This document shows positions 25,057 through 33,320 of a DNA stretch of 34,328 nt, one piece after another. The notes under the pieces were generated by a model. The model saw nothing but the letters and a program-made list of their open reading frames with translations. It had not been told where the DNA came from and ran no database searches. A program made the position numbers and the translations under genes. Where the stretch lies: NCBI GenBank assembly GCA_938084675.1, contig CALKGM010000011.1:1-34328 (forward strand), given 5' to 3'. Numbering within the stretch: position 1 is the stretch's first letter; each line of letters opens with the position of its first letter. This DNA comes from Candidatus Poseidoniaceae archaeon (GTDB lineage: Archaea > Thermoplasmatota > Poseidoniia > Poseidoniales > Poseidoniaceae).

Positions 25057-26223
25057 ATGTCGCAGCCGTCCAATTTGCATCTTCTTGGTCAAGGAAAGAA
25101 GGGCTTGCGCATCCATGATTTGGTTAAGGCTCCGGCTAACACTCCGTGGGCAAAAGCCCGCCAACAATCGTGGGATGCAAGCGAACCTGCTACGGTATAT
25201 ACGACTCCAGAAGCATTGCCCGATGGCACTCCGTGCACGGCAGCAACAGTCATTCTTCGGACCAAAGGGTGTCATTGGTGGTGGTCATCAGGATGTACCT
25301 TTTGTGGTTACTTTAACGATACAAGAGACGATGTTACCAACGAGGACCTCCATTCGCAATGGGCTTATGCAAAAGAGAAATTGAACGGTTTTGAAGAGCA
25401 CGCTATGGTTAAGGTTTACACCTCTGGTTCACTACTTGAAGACCGAGAAATTCCGGTGGAATTCCAAGAAACAGTTCTCAGAGACTGTGCTGAACTTGGA
25501 AAAGAATTGATTGTAGAAAGTCGTTGTGAACAATTGACTGAATCAAAGCTCGAATGGGCTACATCCATCAATCCATCGTTTACCGTTGCGATTGGGTTAG
25601 AGGCATATGATGACGAAGTGCTTAGATTCCATGTCAACAAAGGATTCTCAACGTCTTCTTGGGACCGGGCCGTAACCAATCTTGAACACTTTAATCTCAG
25701 GGTCAAAACATACCTTATGTTCAAACCCCCATTCATGAGCGAGGCTGACGCATTGGACCACAGTGTCAAATGGATTGAAGCCGTTGCAGAACGTTCTGAT
25801 GAAATCTCCGTCAATCCGATGAACATTCAACGAGGCACCGTAATCGACCGCTTGCATCGCCACAATGAATACCGCCCACCCTGGCTTTGGTCGCTTGTCG
25901 CCATGATTCAACGAGCACACCCCTTCATCCATCCCAAAGGCGGAATGAACGGAGAAGCAGACCAAGTTTCACGTCTTATCGTCCACCCTACTGCCGGAGG
26001 AAAGATCCGAGGCTCACACAATTGTGGCTCGTGTGATGGAGAAGTTGTTGCAGCGATTGAACGCTATGCAGTTTCAGGGAGCCTCTTGGAATTTGAAGGG
26101 TTAGCGTGTGGCTGTCAGAAAAAATGGGAGACTGAGTTGATGCTTGAGCGCCAACTCCCACTTCCATTAGGGCTCTCAAAACCTCGTCGAGCCCCAACTC
26201 TTGAGACACTGCGCTCACCGTGA
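25057..26223 (+). CDS. Radical SAM protein, archaeosine synthase RaSEA-like
   Basis: This 388-residue protein carries the spaced cysteine motif C72-x7-C80-x2-C83 in RTKGCHWWWSSGCTFCGYFN, which I match to the RaSEA family (radical SAM partner of ArcS in archaeosine, G+ at position 15 of tRNA). RaSEA converts the ArcS lysine adduct on preQ0-tRNA into archaeosine. Other supporting stretches are VKVYTSGSLLEDREIP, IGLEAYDDEVLRFHVNKG and SVNPMNIQRGTVIDRL. A second cysteine group near the C-terminus (HNCGSC ... ACGCQ) may bind another metal. ATG 25057 follows AGGGGAG by about 5 bases. ArcS and the tRNA transglycosylase are not in the window. The radical SAM call is firm; the RaSEA call rests on motif recall. 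Confidence 0.83.
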   Translation: MSQPSNLHLLGQGKKGLRIHDLVKAPANTPWAKARQQSWDASEPATVYTTPEALPDGTPCTAATVILRTKGCHWWWSSGCTFCGYFNDTRDDVTNEDLHSQWAYAKEKLNGFEEHAMVKVYTSGSLLEDREIPVEFQETVLRDCAELGKELIVESRCEQLTESKLEWATSINPSFTVAIGLEAYDDEVLRFHVNKGFSTSSWDRAVTNLEHFNLRVKTYLMFKPPFMSEADALDHSVKWIEAVAERSDEISVNPMNIQRGTVIDRLHRHNEYRPPWLWSLVAMIQRAHPFIHPKGGMNGEADQVSRLIVHPTAGGKIRGSHNCGSCDGEVVAAIERYAVSGSLLEFEGLACGCQKKWETELMLERQLPLPLGLSKPRRAPTLETLRSP

Positions 26224-26316: not shown

Positions 26317-26332
26317 ATTTGAGGTGAGGCCC

Positions 26333-26605
26333 GTGTCAAATTCCACAACCCTTCCAGATACAACCGTCGGAACAGGAGAACCAACATCAAGTCGCGTGAT
26401 TCTCACGTTGTTCTTTGTTGGCCTTTTGGGCCTCTATTCTTTGTTTGCAAATGTCTTCGGATGGGACAATCTTCCACTCCTTGGAGAACTCGTTCCTTTG
26501 GTCCAGAATTTGGGCGGTAGCGGAATCTGGTACTACTTGATTGGATTTATTGTTGGCGTTGGTGCAATTGTAGCAACGCTCGTGGGTGAGGTACTCGCAG
26601 AATGA
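26333..26605 (+). CDS. Small two-helix membrane protein
   Basis: This 90-residue protein is of unrecognised family. I choose GTG 26333 because GAGGTGA (26321-26327) is five bases upstream; the longer start GTG 26324 would lie inside that site. A polar Thr/Ser-rich N-terminus of ~20 residues precedes two hydrophobic helices, VILTLFFVGLLGLYSLFANV and YYLIGFIVGVGAIVATLVGE. It ends 14 bases before the large oxidase-like membrane protein, so it is almost certainly its operon partner and possibly a small subunit of the same complex. No metal-binding residues are visible. Confidence 0.72.
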   Translation: MSNSTTLPDTTVGTGEPTSSRVILTLFFVGLLGLYSLFANVFGWDNLPLLGELVPLVQNLGGSGIWYYLIGFIVGVGAIVATLVGEVLAE

Positions 26606-26619
26606 TGGAGGTGTGATGT

Positions 26620-28614
26620 ATGGAAACTATTTTTATTACCGGCACCCTACTCATTGCGGTTCTTTTCTTTCTTTCTCAAACCCTTGCACGTGGTGCAGGA
26701 AACGTGGGAGGGGCGCTCCAACAAATCGGGTTATTTATTCTCAAGAAGAACCCACCCGGCCTTGTTGATATTTTCGACGACAAAGATGGTAGCGGTTCCC
26801 GTACATGGATGAACTTCGGAATGCTTTGGTTTGTCTTCGCAAGCGTCCTTGGGTTTTTGGCTGCCTGGCACAACTACGATCCTACGGCTCTCGACTCCCT
26901 AGCAAGCATCGGCTGGTCCTATGATGACGGCTCGTCCCTTCGTGATGCAACGCTGAACGTCCTCGGGTTGGCTCTTCTCTACGGCCTTATCGGCGGAGGA
27001 CTCGTCGCTGTGTCCCGAAACGGAAACGGCCGTCTCGCCAGTGAAGCAAACGCTTCGATGGTCGCTTTGTTGTTGACGGTTGTTCTGATCGTGAGTGTTC
27101 TGCTCCCCTTCATCTTCGGATTCCTGGATGTTGACACCGAATCAACAGTCATCTCAACCCTCCTACTAAGTTTGGAAACGCTTGCAATTGGCCTTCTTCT
27201 CGTACCCATACTCATCAACGTTCTTCTGACAACTGCTACCCGTGGAGAACAAGAACTGTCAACCAGTTCTTGGTTCCTCATCATGGCACTTGTTTCCAAG
27301 ATTTTCGCAATGGTCTACATCTTCTTGGGCGAGTTAGCTGACTCCACCCAAACCGTCTGGCTTGGTGAGCGTGTCTCAAACGGATGGGTCCCTCTTGCTC
27401 TCATGTTCTCGGTAGGATATTACACGGTCCCAATGGTTTCCAAGAAACCCATTTGGTCACCATCCATGCGCTCTGCAAGCATGCTTCTGTTGTTTGTTAC
27501 GCTCCCTCCATTCTTCATGTCTTCCGCTGAGGGAGGGAATGTTCTGGTGAACTTCGGGGCCATTCTCCTTACACTAGGTTTGCTTCCAATATTCGCAGGT
27601 TCAGTGAACATCATCATGACCGCAAATGCAGGCATGGACTCGGTGGTAAAGAATCCAGGTTCAATGGCCGGCATGCTCGCCTTTGTCTTTCTACCATTCT
27701 TTGCTATCGGTGGCTATTTCACCTCAATGGACATCTTTGTTGGAACCGGAGAACTCGGCGCTATGGCACATACCATTGACATGGGAATGATGTTTACCGT
27801 TGGAGGATTACTCATTCTTTCTTCTGTATTCAACAGTTACCCAATGGCCATTGGAAAACCACTTGCTACTCCATCAACCGCCAACCTAGCAGTTTGGATG
27901 GTCCTCGTTGGAGGAGTCACCTCTACTGTTACCTTCCTCGTTGGCGATTTCACAACCAACGCCATCACAACCTCAGGAATCGAAGATGTTGTTGCACCCT
28001 CGGGTGGATTCTTCCTCACCGGATCTGGCATGTTCTACATTCTTGGAATCGGAAGTATTCTTGCAACCCTCGTGACCATCCGAACCGGTATTTCCTCATC
28101 CGGTCGCTCGGTCTCAACTGAAACCCTTTCCGATGTGAACACCTACACCCTTGTAGCAGGCTCTTCAACCACCATTCGCAAACTAATTGGCCGAGGTGTT
28201 GGAGTTGATACGGAATTGGTTGTTAGCAAAACCGAGGAAATGGAGGGTGGCTCAACCATCATCGCCGTTGACTCTTCACTCCACAACGACGAGATCACAG
28301 AATTCCCTCCAAAGGCTCCCACAGAAGCCATGATTCAACTCGTCCAATATCTTACCGACAAAGGCCAATCTGTCTTTGACCTGTTCCTTTCCATGGATTT
28401 GGATGCTTCAGGGAAAGTCGATGGCGAGGAATTCCTCACCGCCCTTCAGGCAACAGATATTGACGCCCTTTCTTCAGTTGAAGCGGGTGAATTGATGGAA
28501 ATCATGGACCTTGACGGTGATGGAGAACTTAACCTTCCAGAACTTGACATTGCTATTGCTCAAATCAAGCGAGACTACGACATCATTCCCTCGGCAGGTT
28601 CCGAGGAAGAATGA
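26620..28614 (+). CDS. Heme-copper-oxidase-like polytopic membrane protein with C-terminal EF-hand pair
   Basis: This 664-residue protein begins at ATG 26620 after GGAGGTG. About 13 hydrophobic helices fill residues 1-500. Their order and loop motifs (VGYYTVPMVSKKPIWSPSMR, then LLPIFAGSVNIIMTANAGMD and FAIGGYFTSMDIFVG) resemble subunit I of cbb3/NOR-type heme-copper oxidases. Only three histidines occur in the whole protein (WHNY, MAHT, LHND), so the six ligands for two hemes and copper B cannot be present. The ~160-residue C-terminal domain is soluble and holds two perfect EF-hand loops, 593-604 (DLDASGKVDGEE) and 630-641 (DLDGDGELNLPE). Another Asp-rich loop, DDKDGSGSRTW, lies near residue 50. 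The fold match is my pattern reading, not an alignment. Function unknown; calcium sensing or a structural role is possible. Confidence 0.65.
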   Translation: METIFITGTLLIAVLFFLSQTLARGAGNVGGALQQIGLFILKKNPPGLVDIFDDKDGSGSRTWMNFGMLWFVFASVLGFLAAWHNYDPTALDSLASIGWSYDDGSSLRDATLNVLGLALLYGLIGGGLVAVSRNGNGRLASEANASMVALLLTVVLIVSVLLPFIFGFLDVDTESTVISTLLLSLETLAIGLLLVPILINVLLTTATRGEQELSTSSWFLIMALVSKIFAMVYIFLGELADSTQTVWLGERVSNGWVPLALMFSVGYYTVPMVSKKPIWSPSMRSASMLLLFVTLPPFFMSSAEGGNVLVNFGAILLTLGLLPIFAGSVNIIMTANAGMDSVVKNPGSMAGMLAFVFLPFFAIGGYFTSMDIFVGTGELGAMAHTIDMGMMFTVGGLLILSSVFNSYPMAIGKPLATPSTANLAVWMVLVGGVTSTVTFLVGDFTTNAITTSGIEDVVAPSGGFFLTGSGMFYILGIGSILATLVTIRTGISSSGRSVSTETLSDVNTYTLVAGSSTTIRKLIGRGVGVDTELVVSKTEEMEGGSTIIAVDSSLHNDEITEFPPKAPTEAMIQLVQYLTDKGQSVFDLFLSMDLDASGKVDGEEFLTALQATDIDALSSVEAGELMEIMDLDGDGELNLPELDIAIAQIKRDYDIIPSAGSEEE

Positions 28615-28632
28615 GGGTCGTCACCGGGCGTG

Positions 28633-29919
28633 ATGACGGTGCGCATTGGCCTCGTAGGCAAACCAAACGTAGGCAAATCTACGTTCTTTAGCGCAGCAAC
28701 CCTCGCTCAAGTTGACATTGCGAACTATCCGTTTTGTACCATTGACCCCAATGTCGGAGTTGCCTTTGTAGAGGCGCGGCTTGCCTGTCCGTGCAAAGCC
28801 CTGCGTGAAAAATTAGAATCCGAAGGACGCCTTGAAGCCGCTTCACCTGATGACCCACGTCAAGGTAGCCTCTGTGAACCACGGACGGGCTCGTGTGTAG
28901 GTCACCGCCGCTTCGTTCCAGTAGCCCTGGTTGATGTTGCCGGTCTCGTCCCTGGGGCGAGTGAAGGGAGAGGGAGAGGCAATGCCTTTCTATCGGACTT
29001 AGCTAATTCCAATGTCTTGATTCAAGTTGTTGACGCTGCCGGAACAACCGACTTAGAAGGCCAGTTCCTCGGTGGGGCCTCCTCAAAAGAAGAGGCTCTC
29101 AGTGCAATGAAAGAAGAGATAGCTTTCCTCGAAGAAGAATTGGATGCATGGATCGCCGGCATTCTCAATGAGGGCTGGACTCGCGGTGTACGCAGAGTGC
29201 AAGCGGAAGGCGAGAAGGGGTTGGCTTCGTTTGTTCAAGAGCGATTAAGCGGGCTAGGGGCTACGACTCAACTCGTTTCCCAATGCATGTTGCAATTCCA
29301 ACAAGAGCAACGCCCGGAAGGACAACCGTGGGATTGGAGTGCTGAGGTTCTCCAAGCGCTCGCTGCGACGTTGCGGCAAGGATTGTTTCCCATTGCCTAC
29401 GCAGCGAACAAGTGGGACATTGCTCCGGCTGGAGTGATTGATGACCTCTCCTCGTACTCGATTGAACCGTGCATGGCCGATGTTGAACTCGCATTACGAA
29501 GAGCAGCAAACGCGAATATCATTTCGTACCATCCAGGAGAAACCACCTTCTCAATCAATGATTCCTCTGCACTAAATGACGCCCAAACCAAGGCTTTAGC
29601 ACATATGCTTGCTCGGATGGAATCGTCCAATGGAACGGGCGTGGCTCGCCTATTGGACCGGGTTTTGTTTGACCTCCTGGAACAGATTGTTGTTTATCCC
29701 GTACAAGATGAAAGTCATTGGGTGGACGGTGACGGCAAAGTTTTGCCAGATGCATTTGTAGTCTCATCAGGAATCCAAGCCAAAGCCTTGGCTTACCATG
29801 TCCATACAGACTTAGGAGACGGTTTCATTCGTGGCGTTGATGGAAAAACTCGTCGTGTGGTAGGCGCAGACCACGAGTTGTCTGATGGGGACGTACTCAA
29901 AATTCACGCTAAGTCGTGA
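28633..29919 (+). CDS. ychF: YchF/OLA1-type translation-associated GTPase
   Basis: This 428-residue protein starts at ATG 28633 (GTG 28630 is also possible). G1 is GLVGKPNVGKST (K15), G3 is DVAGLVPGASEGRGRGN and G4 is ANKWD (N259-D262). A C-terminal TGS domain covers the last ~90 residues (AYHVHTDLGDGFIRGV ... DGDVLKIHAKS). This is the archaeal YchF/Obg-related group, thought to bind ribosomes. The NKxD form of G4 suggests GTP rather than the ATP preference of bacterial and human YchF/OLA1. Several cysteines in CPCKALRE and SLCEPRTGSC lie in the region between G1 and G3. It follows the oxidase-like gene by 18 bases and converges with the zinc-ribbon gene with a single base between stops. Confidence 0.92.
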   Translation: MTVRIGLVGKPNVGKSTFFSAATLAQVDIANYPFCTIDPNVGVAFVEARLACPCKALREKLESEGRLEAASPDDPRQGSLCEPRTGSCVGHRRFVPVALVDVAGLVPGASEGRGRGNAFLSDLANSNVLIQVVDAAGTTDLEGQFLGGASSKEEALSAMKEEIAFLEEELDAWIAGILNEGWTRGVRRVQAEGEKGLASFVQERLSGLGATTQLVSQCMLQFQQEQRPEGQPWDWSAEVLQALAATLRQGLFPIAYAANKWDIAPAGVIDDLSSYSIEPCMADVELALRRAANANIISYHPGETTFSINDSSALNDAQTKALAHMLARMESSNGTGVARLLDRVLFDLLEQIVVYPVQDESHWVDGDGKVLPDAFVVSSGIQAKALAYHVHTDLGDGFIRGVDGKTRRVVGADHELSDGDVLKIHAKS

Positions 29920-30343: not shown

Positions 30344-32584
30344 TCAACCATCCGATGGATTCTGAAGAAATTCTTGAATGATTGCTCGCCCTTCGGGAGA
30401 GCCAATGGACTCTGGATGGAACTGAACTCCATGAATAGGGTGCGAGGAATGACGGATGCCCATCACCAGCCCAGTTTCAGATTCTCTCCCGTTGATGATG
30501 AACGAATGTCCTTCGTTCTCGTTGACGACGAGTGAGTTGTATCGCGTGAATGCTTCTGGCGAAGTTGAGGTTGCGAAGACGCCCGTCCCATCGTGCTCAA
30601 TTCGAACAGGAACACCATGGACAGGCCCATGCGGAGAGGGGATGACTTCCATTCCATCGGCAAGTGCGAGGGCTTGATGGCCGAGGCAAACCCCCAAGAC
30701 TGGAGTTGACAATTGTCCAGCGAGAGCGTGATGAGCAAGTGCCATGGTCAACGGAGCATCATCCGGAGCCCCAGGCCCGGGGCCGAGAACAATGTGAGTA
30801 GGTTTTAGACGGTCTAGAAGGTCAAACAGGGCCGTGGGGTCCGCCAATAGTTCTGCTTTCTTATTACGCCCCGCTAAGACCGTAACATCATGTCCAGATT
30901 GAGCGATAGCGTCTGCAACATTGAGTGAAAATGAATCCAAATTATCGATGAAGAGCACACCACAATCCCCATTGCTCTCAATGCACTGTTCAAGCGTCTG
31001 AACCGAGGCAGGAGTTCCTTTTGCCGCTGTTAGATTTTGATAACCGATTGGATGAATTTCAAGTTCGCCCCGTGGGATTGGGTTTTCATCGGCTTCCATC
31101 CATCCCGATGCAACTCGCAATGCAGCACCTTTCCATACAGCTTCTGAAACCTCTTTTGCGGCGTCTGAAGCAATAGTAATTCCACCACCGGCTCCGATGC
31201 TTCCTGCCCAACCAGATGTAGTTCTGTGAGCCTCCAGCGTCCGAATCAATATATTCCAAGACGAAGAACCCGTGTGGACGTCAACCCAGCCTGCTGAACC
31301 GGTCCAGAACGAACGTGGATGCTGTTCAAGTTCATCAATTACGGCGCAAACCATGGTTCTGGGACAGCCCGTGATAGAGCCTCCTGGAAAGATAGACTGG
31401 AAGGCAGTTTTCCCGTTGTGTTCCGGCCTGAACGTTCCGGTAATATGGCTGACAAGATGCTGAACATTTGAGTAAACTTCAACATCAAAACGGTCGATAT
31501 CAACCGAGCCCACTTCACATACACTAGAGAGGTCATTTCGCATGAGGTCGGCAAGCATGCGATGCTCGGCTCGTTCCTTTTCATCTCCAATCATTGCATT
31601 TCTAAGAGCTGCTGCTTCTTCTGGGGTTGAACCTTGTAGGCATGTACCTTTGATTGGGGATGAACGGATGTGTTCTTCATTGCAATCGAGGAGAGATTCT
31701 GGAGAAGAACTGGCTAATGCAAATCCAACATCGTCGGCTTCAAGGTAGACTGAATACGGTGCAGGATTGCTCTGCGTGAGGTGTTTAAACACCTCAAAGG
31801 GATGTTCAATAGGCCCCTGCCAGTGTTTTCCAACATTGACCTGATAGACTTGTCCTGCAATGATCCCTTGGCGAACCCGTTCAATGTTTTCAATATGGGT
31901 TTCATCATCGTGGGTTGTTGTTTCCACATGTCGTAGGAGGGACGTCTCGACGGGTTCAGTGGGTATCGCTTTGAGCGCCTCTTGAGCGGCATCAGCCCAG
32001 GGTGAATCTGCACCAAAAATACCGAGTTCATCGCTGTGGCGGTCGTGGAAAACCCCCCCTTCAATGAGCCACATGACGCTCAAAAGCGTCCCTTCTTTCG
32101 GAGGGTTCTGAAGGAGAAGCGGTTGGGTCCATTGCATCATATCGTAAGCCATTGCTCCAGACCAAAAAGGGCCTGAAGCCATGCCGTTGCATCCTGGTTT
32201 GTCAAACGGTTCAGGAGATGTAATCGGTTGTAGTTTGTTCAGCAAGTCACCTACACTTGAGGCGATAAGGGTGACGCTGTGATACCAACTGCCGTGCTTC
32301 CATTCTTCTACCTCGGCTCTTAACTCACACTTTTCTTCAATCAATTGTATGGTTCCAGAAATTGGAGAATGTGGTTTTGCCGCTGGCATTTCTAACCGAG
32401 ATGGTTGACGGATGATAGCACGTTTCTTTGGAGGGGCCGCAAGCATCGACCAGTTCGCTAAATGAGACGCTGGACCGCCTGAAACTAACATCACTCTGTC
32501 TGAAGAACCGTGGCGAAACGCTTCTTGTCCGAGCAACTTACACTGGCTGAGATGGGTAGAAAGTTCGGTCATATTCACCGACAT
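30344..32584 (-). CDS. pabB-pabA: Aminodeoxychorismate synthase, fused PabB-PabA (component I plus glutaminase)
   Basis: This 746-residue fusion starts at ATG 32584, 13 bases after the pabC stop; longer frames would run back into pabC. Residues ~1-535 are the chorismate-binding domain, with SSPIKGTCLQG (K312, the PIKGT form typical of PabB rather than TrpE), RAEHRMLADLMRNDL, FPGGSITGCPRTM and GAGGGITIASD. Residues ~565-746 are a class I glutaminase with LGPGPGAPDDAP, nucleophile C633 in LGVCLGHQALA and HGVQFHPESIGS. The glutaminase supplies ammonia and the enzyme makes 4-amino-4-deoxychorismate from chorismate. Adjacent pabC would finish p-aminobenzoate for folate- or pterin-type cofactors. 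The order (component I first) is the reverse of many plant and fungal PabAB fusions. Anthranilate synthase is the main alternative, less likely given PIKGT and pabC. Confidence 0.88.
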   Translation of the reverse strand: MSVNMTELSTHLSQCKLLGQEAFRHGSSDRVMLVSGGPASHLANWSMLAAPPKKRAIIRQPSRLEMPAAKPHSPISGTIQLIEEKCELRAEVEEWKHGSWYHSVTLIASSVGDLLNKLQPITSPEPFDKPGCNGMASGPFWSGAMAYDMMQWTQPLLLQNPPKEGTLLSVMWLIEGGVFHDRHSDELGIFGADSPWADAAQEALKAIPTEPVETSLLRHVETTTHDDETHIENIERVRQGIIAGQVYQVNVGKHWQGPIEHPFEVFKHLTQSNPAPYSVYLEADDVGFALASSSPESLLDCNEEHIRSSPIKGTCLQGSTPEEAAALRNAMIGDEKERAEHRMLADLMRNDLSSVCEVGSVDIDRFDVEVYSNVQHLVSHITGTFRPEHNGKTAFQSIFPGGSITGCPRTMVCAVIDELEQHPRSFWTGSAGWVDVHTGSSSWNILIRTLEAHRTTSGWAGSIGAGGGITIASDAAKEVSEAVWKGAALRVASGWMEADENPIPRGELEIHPIGYQNLTAAKGTPASVQTLEQCIESNGDCGVLFIDNLDSFSLNVADAIAQSGHDVTVLAGRNKKAELLADPTALFDLLDRLKPTHIVLGPGPGAPDDAPLTMALAHHALAGQLSTPVLGVCLGHQALALADGMEVIPSPHGPVHGVPVRIEHDGTGVFATSTSPEAFTRYNSLVVNENEGHSFIINGRESETGLVMGIRHSSHPIHGVQFHPESIGSPEGRAIIQEFLQNPSDG

Positions 32585-32597
32585 ACTCTCGCCCCGT

Positions 32598-33320
32598 CTA
32601 CGACCAGGTGGCCTCTTGGGTAAAATGTTGGTTGATAATTTTTTGACATTGTTTGGATAAAACCGTGGACTGCCCAACGCGTTCACCATCAATTGAGTCC
32701 ACTCGGCAAGCACCCAGGCCAGACCCTACAACCACCAGTTCATGGCATCGGGCAACGAGACGTTCATTCAAGCGGCCCCGAACTACTGGTAGTCCAAAAT
32801 CAGGGAGTTTTGCTTCAAGAAGCGAAGAAGTGATTCCATCCACACCTCCATCTTCGTCAGTAGGTATCCAAACCGTTCCGTCTTCATCAAGCAGCATCGG
32901 CGTACCTCGGTCAGCATCAACCAGTGCGTGTTCATGAACGAAAAGAGCAACATCACAACCGGCTTTTTCTGCTCTCACTCGGGCTTCGTTGTACGGCGTC
33001 CAATCTCCGTGCTTACAGCCGTTTGTCTTTGGATTCCACCGTGGGGCGGGAACCGATATCGCGTCCAATGACTCGTTACGGACGGTGAACGGTCGGTGCT
33101 GAACCTTCCAGCCTTGTTCGGCTGAATAGGACAGTCGAACGAGTCCCATTTCACTGACCTCAACGTCCATTGAAGGAAATGTGTCGGGAAGTGAAATTCT
33201 CAACCTTTTAGCATGGTCTTTCATCCGTATCAAATGCGCCGGGCCATCAGCGATTTGTCCCTTTGAGTTGACTACAGCGGTGGTAAAGACCTCGTCTCGG
33301 GGCCCACTCGTTTGACTCAT
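32598..33320 (-). CDS. pabC: Aminodeoxychorismate lyase (PabC), class IV aminotransferase fold
   Basis: This 240-residue PLP enzyme would split aminodeoxychorismate into p-aminobenzoate and pyruvate. The class IV aminotransferase features are an early Arg region with HAKRLRISLP, the probable Schiff-base lysine K103 in CKHGDWTPYNEAR, AGCDVALFVHE, TVWIPTDEDGGVDGITSSLL and the closing VGSGLGACRVDSIDG. It is about 30 residues shorter than bacterial PabC and its lysine lies early, with a reduced N-terminal lobe. ATG 33320 follows GAGGCGAGGG by two to three bases and the upstream gene stop by nine. Position between a surface protein and the PabBA fusion, with the fusion immediately downstream, supports the assignment over branched-chain or D-amino acid aminotransferase. 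Confidence 0.85.
   Translation of the reverse strand: MSQTSGPRDEVFTTAVVNSKGQIADGPAHLIRMKDHAKRLRISLPDTFPSMDVEVSEMGLVRLSYSAEQGWKVQHRPFTVRNESLDAISVPAPRWNPKTNGCKHGDWTPYNEARVRAEKAGCDVALFVHEHALVDADRGTPMLLDEDGTVWIPTDEDGGVDGITSSLLEAKLPDFGLPVVRGRLNERLVARCHELVVVGSGLGACRVDSIDGERVGQSTVLSKQCQKIINQHFTQEATWS

Follow-up and report, generated by a model that had tools for sequence, protein, structure and literature searches.

A CcoN-like membrane protein without heme ligands and with a C-terminal EF-hand tail in a Poseidoniales archaeon

Introduction

What can a membrane protein do that is apparently built like the catalytic subunit of a terminal oxidase and has hardly any histidines? This question is raised by a 664-residue protein encoded in the window analysed here, a stretch of 34,328 nucleotides from a Candidatus Poseidoniaceae archaeon (assembly GCA_938084675.1, contig CALKGM010000011.1, positions 1 to 34,328). 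The host genome (1.94 Mb, 49 contigs) belongs to Ca. Poseidonia of the Marine Group II (MGII) archaea. The closest relatives of the window among named records include Candidatus Poseidonia alphae (91%) and a Poseidoniaceae archaeon (96%), as found by an all-species contig scan whose reach is limited to close relatives. A sequence-only reading of the locus had proposed an oxidase core with the helix order of cbb3-type oxidases or NO reductases (NOR), devoid of metal ligands and turned into a calcium-responsive protein.

For comparison, three archaeal families were distinguished: the family of the window (f1), a sister family of the same order (f2) and a further family of the class (f3). We take the sister family to be the Thalassarchaeaceae (MGIIb), the further family to be MGIII, and the first two together to be the Poseidoniales.

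Results

The protein and its locus

The features of the locus are as follows.

26620..28614, + strand: CcoN-like membrane protein, almost certainly heme-less, with a C-terminal EF-hand tail, 664 aa (ORF list, profile, fold)
26620..28089, + strand: membrane core, residues 1-490, modelled as an extra N-terminal helix and an oxidase-type 12-helix core (AF2 models, CcoN profile match; the helix count is our own reading of the models)
28162..28218, + strand: motif 3' of the last helix, residues 515-533, TTIRxLxxxGxGxDTE (alignment)
28375..28545, + strand: EF-hand pair, residues 586-642, predicted cytoplasmic (Pfam, loop pattern)
28396..28431, + strand: EF loop 1, DLDASGKVDGEE, residues 593-604 (EF-loop pattern)
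28507..28542, + strand: EF loop 2, DLDGDGELNLPE, residues 630-641 (EF-loop pattern)
26324..26605, + strand: 93-aa small membrane protein with two hydrophobic segments by eye
25057..26223, + strand: RaSEA archaeosine radical SAM enzyme, upstream neighbour (Pfam/NCBIfam, locus comparison)
28630..29919, + strand: YchF/YGR210-related GTPase, downstream neighbour (Pfam/NCBIfam, locus comparison)

The open reading frame starts with ATG and encodes nine Trp, no Cys and, as had been noticed at first sight, only three His residues (H84, H384 and H555). Elsewhere in the window, a single ORF on the opposite strand (30344-32713, -) encodes a chorismate-binding enzyme fused to a class-I glutamine amidotransferase.

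Relationship to CcoN

Searched singly against Pfam and NCBIfam, the window protein shows its EF-hands and no match to COX1 or other oxidase models, and the core of one sister-family protein, searched by itself against the PDB, gave no matches. The family as a whole was represented by alignments drawn from 70 distinct homologues, from which mostly near-identical rows were dropped, leaving 50 rows, and 45 rows for the core profile, which included no oxidase. Against the PDB, the core profile placed five CcoN sequences at the top (E 4.7e-13 to 5.6e-10), followed by NorB (E 0.018) and by the last two listed entries with E 0.3. A 402-residue CcoN segment scored 48.5 bits with this profile, compared with at best 10.8 bits among 1971 scored shuffles (of 2000), at best 6.9 bits among 1961 scored block shuffles (of 2000) and -2.3 bits for the reversed segment. 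NuoH, NuoL, NuoM, NuoN and the amino-acid permease of the host genome all scored below zero. These controls argue against composition as the cause of the CcoN match.

The oxidase subunit I of the host genome itself scored below zero as well. When the family profile was compared with a profile of 12 genuine oxidase subunits I from the phylum, the match fell short of significance (E 0.066), though the N..T landmark lined up in that alignment. This places the kinship on the cbb3/NOR side of the superfamily. Among the 50 aligned members, eight matched Pfam COX1 and three of them passed its cut-off of 34.8 bits (L069, 50.9 bits; L064, 41.9 bits; L093, 40.6 bits). The NCBIfam model of cbb3 subunit I/II was matched by seven of the 50 (best 1.9e-8) and ccoN by one (3.8e-8), far below the model cut-off of 583 bits. 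Judged by the profile evidence, the core is homologous to CcoN.

Structure prediction points the same way. With 24 in-genus sequences as input, the AF2 model of the whole protein was weak (pLDDT 60.9, pTM 0.58), and that of residues 41-500 was better (pLDDT 73.8, pTM 0.81); three rows with unknown residues and one fragment were skipped in the structure jobs. In Foldseek searches of the PDB, cbb3 chains came first for both models (best E 7.2e-7 for the whole protein and 7.4e-10 for the core), with TM-scores of up to 0.75 between the core model and CcoN and with NorB next in both searches (E 3.3e-6 for the core). The fold list of the weak whole-protein model also held unrelated entries of low probability. 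The best 50 of the 276 fold matches of the core model, classed by entry title, were heme-copper oxidases, NO reductases or supercomplexes containing an oxidase, and no transporter was among them. As modelled, the core has the fold of oxidase subunit I, and the cbb3/NOR-type helix order proposed earlier is borne out by profile and fold alike.

Lost ligands and retained structural residues

In CcoN (3mk7 numbering), the ligands of the metal sites are taken to be H60, H207, H257, H258, H345 and H347, with Tyr251 as the cross-linked tyrosine and Glu323 as the channel glutamate. In the HMMER alignment to 3mk7, the six histidines correspond to A110, R251, S302, A303, I386 and M388 of the window protein, Tyr251 to P296 and Glu323 to G364. 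By these roles, the low-spin heme pair is replaced by A110 and M388, the heme b3 ligand by I386, in a column that is never His among the 45 relatives, and the three CuB ligands by R251, S302 and A303, the alignment being loose around the last two.

A homologue with the standard histidines was sought among the 45 mapped members, and none was found: 24 have no His at the six positions, 19 have one and two have two. In some members another His lies no more than three residues away from a ligand position. These scattered residues are the grounds for the view that the protein still works as an oxidase or NO reductase through unusual ligands. Against this stand the retained histidines themselves, which differ between subgroups of relatives, and the 13 invariant columns (G25, W63, W70, F79, A90, W279, S280, P323, N330, T334, P408, Y473 and R520), which contain no His, Cys, Met or Lys. 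Moreover, an authentic oxidase subunit I (Pfam COX1, 478 bits) is encoded at another place in the host genome, and an alignment of 12 such proteins shows all six ligand histidines, as assigned by motif, to be invariant. A catalytic role with unusual ligands is thus very improbable.

What the family has kept is of a different nature. The invariant S280, P323, N330, T334 and P408 and the nearly invariant W218, W247, W426 and G431 are common to CcoN, the corresponding CcoN/window pairs being W162/W218, W203/W247, S236/S280, P282/P323, N289/N330, T293/T334, P367/P408, W386/W426 and G391/G431. In the motif that follows the last helix, R520 is invariant and D530 and T531 are nearly so in both Poseidoniales families. 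Structural residues retained and catalytic residues lost give the protein, as far as the alignment tells, the look of a pseudoenzyme. In summary, it resembles CcoN (PDB 3mk7, 8smr) in fold, profile match and structural residues, and differs from it in the replaced histidines, tyrosine and glutamate, in the extra N-terminal helix and in the EF-hand tail, with 53 of 367 aligned residues identical. NorB differs in that it binds metals, and its match is weaker than that of CcoN. Profile, fold and residue mapping together support the earlier proposal of an oxidase core without metal ligands, and the 664-residue protein is almost certainly a heme-less relative of CcoN.

The retained fold, with its polar invariants N330, T334 and S280, would also suit a re-purposed transporter or channel, in which the emptied cavity would let through or hold an ion or small molecule, with Ca2+ as the gating signal in the window's family; an amino-acid permease of the host genome does carry an EF-hand pair at its C-terminus. 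Among the invariant columns, however, R520 alone is charged, and it is placed beyond the last helix; the fold matches described above also speak against a transporter. We regard this explanation as unlikely.

The EF-hand tail

The two calcium loops proposed for the C-terminal domain are upheld by the sequence (residues 593-604 and 630-641); when the protein was shuffled 20,000 times, one shuffle had at least two canonical EF loops. Pfam EF-hand_1 narrowly passes its cut-off (26.1 vs 25.4 bits), the pair model EF-hand_7 does not reach its threshold (26.3 vs 30 bits), and calmodulin chains match the tail. The likeness to calmodulin-like EF pairs lies in the two canonical 12-residue loops; the difference is that here they are joined to an archaeal membrane protein of oxidase fold. 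With helix ends placed manually on the model, nine Lys or Arg residues fall in inside loops and none in outside loops, and the tail is accordingly predicted by the positive-inside rule to be cytoplasmic. The tail is inferred to bind Ca2+.

A third Asp-rich calcium loop had been suggested near residue 50. This candidate, DIFDDKDGSGS, was rejected: it does not match the EF-loop pattern, and the acidic D54 and D56 are variable, being Asp in 38 and 27 of 70 aligned homologues, respectively. D50, G57 and W63 are kept in 68, 68 and 69 of the 70, and we read the stretch, from its conservation, as a probable turn before TM1.

In the 50-row alignment, Pfam EF-hands were found in all 32 rows of the window's family and in none of the 18 rows of the sister family, which were scanned singly. 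A stricter loop pattern gave two loops in 47, one in four and none in one of 52 proteins of the window's family, and no loop in any of the 18 sister-family proteins. Since the sister family keeps the heme-less core without EF-hands, calcium would be an added input and not the reason for the conservation of the core. The suggestion that the oxidase core has become calcium-responsive thus stands, at the level of sequence, for the EF-hands themselves, and gives way to an add-on in one family as regards the core.

The tails of some relatives carry other domains, namely SAP in 16 of 50 (L063, L067, L069, L101 and others) and the helix-hairpin-helix domain HHH_5 in one of 50 (L084). These are nucleic-acid-type modules on a membrane protein; Pfam detects neither in the window protein.

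Conservation and gene order

Among the genomes listed, the core profile has a match in 80 of 81 Poseidoniales (41 of 42 in the window's family and 39 of 39 in the sister family) and in none of the six genomes of the further family; genomes without a match are counted as far as they are listed, in an order that follows kinship in the part shown. The phylum sample comprised 292 genomes, and the other 205 gave three weak, short matches (E 0.003-0.018). At four further places in the phylum with a weak likeness to COX1, the core profile has no match. A wider count of 164 of 170 genomes mixes EF-only and fragment matches, and becomes 153 of 170 after removal of 11 without a match better than 1e-50.

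The gene order RaSEA, small membrane protein, CcoN-like protein and YchF-like GTPase is kept in 45 loci (27 of the window's family and 18 of the sister family), in which RaSEA was recognized in 45, the small protein in 39 and the GTPase in 43. A profile search for the small protein recovered it in the six apparent misses and in two further loci, so that it lies directly upstream in 47 of 47, which makes the 93-residue protein a likely partner subunit. No CcoO- or CcoP-type neighbour was recognized at the 45 loci, where the inner neighbours are the three genes named and the outer flanks, partly identified, are mostly family-specific.

The core evolves under constraint, with dN/dS of 0.04-0.10 in seven of nine pairs; the other two pairs have saturated dS, and in two of the seven dS is near 2. 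Purifying selection, presence in nearly all Poseidoniales genomes and the kept gene order together indicate what looks like an old pseudo-oxidase family and not a decaying gene. A decaying pseudogene or an assembly artefact would account for the loss of all ligands, but the frame is open, homologues occur throughout the order, and neither relaxed selection nor frameshifts were seen in most relatives. Together with the low dN/dS, where estimable, and the conserved gene order, this leaves such an explanation with practically no credibility.

The conserved neighbours RaSEA and the YchF-like GTPase are translation-related, not respiratory. It is conceivable that the heme-less core and the small protein serve as a membrane dock or regulator for the GTPase or the ribosome, with the tail (its EF-hand, SAP or HHH modules) as a contact surface. 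The order with RaSEA and the GTPase is kept in both families. Among 16 genomes of other families, both genes were found in nine, on different contigs in eight and about 16 kb apart in one, as read from drafts in which adjacency is possible near contig ends. The SAP and HHH_5 modules in the tails of relatives would fit such a role. However, adjacency does not amount to interaction, no ribosome-binding domain appeared in the Pfam scans, and the window protein has neither SAP nor HHH, so that we consider a translation-related dock doubtful.

EF-hands on complex I

The second-best match of the window protein in its own genome is NuoL, an 850-residue ORF among other nuo genes (G000:C7:28863-31412; L002:211-2760; L234:4864-7413), which has an inserted EF-hand pair that shares 42% identity with the tail (E 5e-17). 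NuoL carries the EF pair as a continuous match in all 15 sampled genomes of the genus, one of which ends at residue 677 of 850. In the other listed genera of the window's family, the NuoL match stops near residue 440 and resumes near residue 530. In one sister-family genus, represented by two genomes, a NuoL EF-hand is over the Pfam cut-off in G228 and below it in G206. The former genome has a further instance, and the loci concerned in this genus are listed together here.

L233:2251-2844, L233:3147-6110; L220:534-3170: EF-hands on NuoL of the two genomes and, in G228, EF-hand pair over cut-off at the end of the protein at the NuoJ position (Pfam; the position is assigned by gene order, with no NuoJ Pfam match below 0.001)

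In a tree of the EF modules, the pseudo-oxidase tails have among them the NuoL inserts of the window's genus as well as the NuoJ-position pair. Outside them lie the sister-family NuoL inserts and also two tails of one genus of the window's family (L063 and L066), these two beside unrelated EF proteins. Because the tree spans about 90 residues, is midpoint-rooted with no support values printed, and leaves out short matches, the nesting of NuoL among the tails is suggestive only. These relationships weakly suggest that the EF module may have moved between respiratory-type proteins.

EF-hand matches occur in nine ORFs of the host genome. One is the permease mentioned above (L224:1480-3171, -; G000:C24), and another is a ZnuA-like zinc-binding protein that combines EF-hands with long repeats rich in His and Asp (L228:508-2979, -; G000:C15). 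With such proteins among the nine, fusion to EF-hands may be a general habit without respiratory meaning.

Discussion

Taken as a whole, the observations are probably best explained by a pseudo-oxidase with a heme-free accessory role in respiration and a calcium input. As the computations show, the core is a relative of CcoN that has kept the fold and its structural residues and has lost those for binding the two hemes and copper, along with the cross-linked tyrosine and the channel glutamate. It would not work as an enzyme but would serve the respiratory chain as an accessory subunit or scaffold. The window protein and the 93-residue protein would form a membrane unit, and the cytoplasmic tail would bind Ca2+, its movement altering the contact with a partner. 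This partner would be a respiratory complex, most likely complex I at its membrane arm, since NuoL of the same genus contains a similar EF module. The module shared with NuoL is also our main reason for preferring a respiratory role and is circumstantial; the accessory role with calcium input, taken as a claim by itself, is put forward tentatively. The pointer to complex I is the shared EF module, as read from the sequences, and that module only. A calcium-controlled chain, in which the pseudo-oxidase docks to complex I at the membrane arm, the EF module sits on the tail, on NuoL and, in another genus, on the NuoJ-position protein, and cytoplasmic Ca2+ sets proton pumping, is a more speculative extension that we consider rather unlikely.

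The MGII chain described in PMC6336850 consists of complex I, complex II, cytochrome b with a Rieske protein and a low-affinity oxidase. The closest published statements that we found are in PMC9258230. This source reports the family fam02696, which in Halobacteria often lies beside oxidase or NO reductase genes and is assigned 'distant homology' with oxidase subunit I, as well as protein modules of a Poseidoniales subgroup with calcium-binding domains. Like the present family, fam02696 is archaeal and remotely similar to oxidase subunit I, the two being likened by description alone. Nothing on the CcoN-like protein was found in passages of PMC6461757 or by term search in PMC9723583. Among the open-access papers listed for these subjects, none was seen to report that a Poseidoniales oxidase subunit I lacks its ligands or that NuoL carries EF-hands.

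The family has a practical consequence for annotation, as three relatives score above the Pfam COX1 cut-off and might be mistaken for oxidases. Metal sites are what defines heme-copper oxidases, and the findings suggest that the fold can serve a non-catalytic purpose without a complete site. With EF-hands on the pseudo-oxidase and on complex I subunits, the idea that calcium controls an archaeal respiratory chain can be put to the test. The host group are abundant archaea of the ocean surface, which keep an oxidase fold that lacks a complete metal site under purifying selection.
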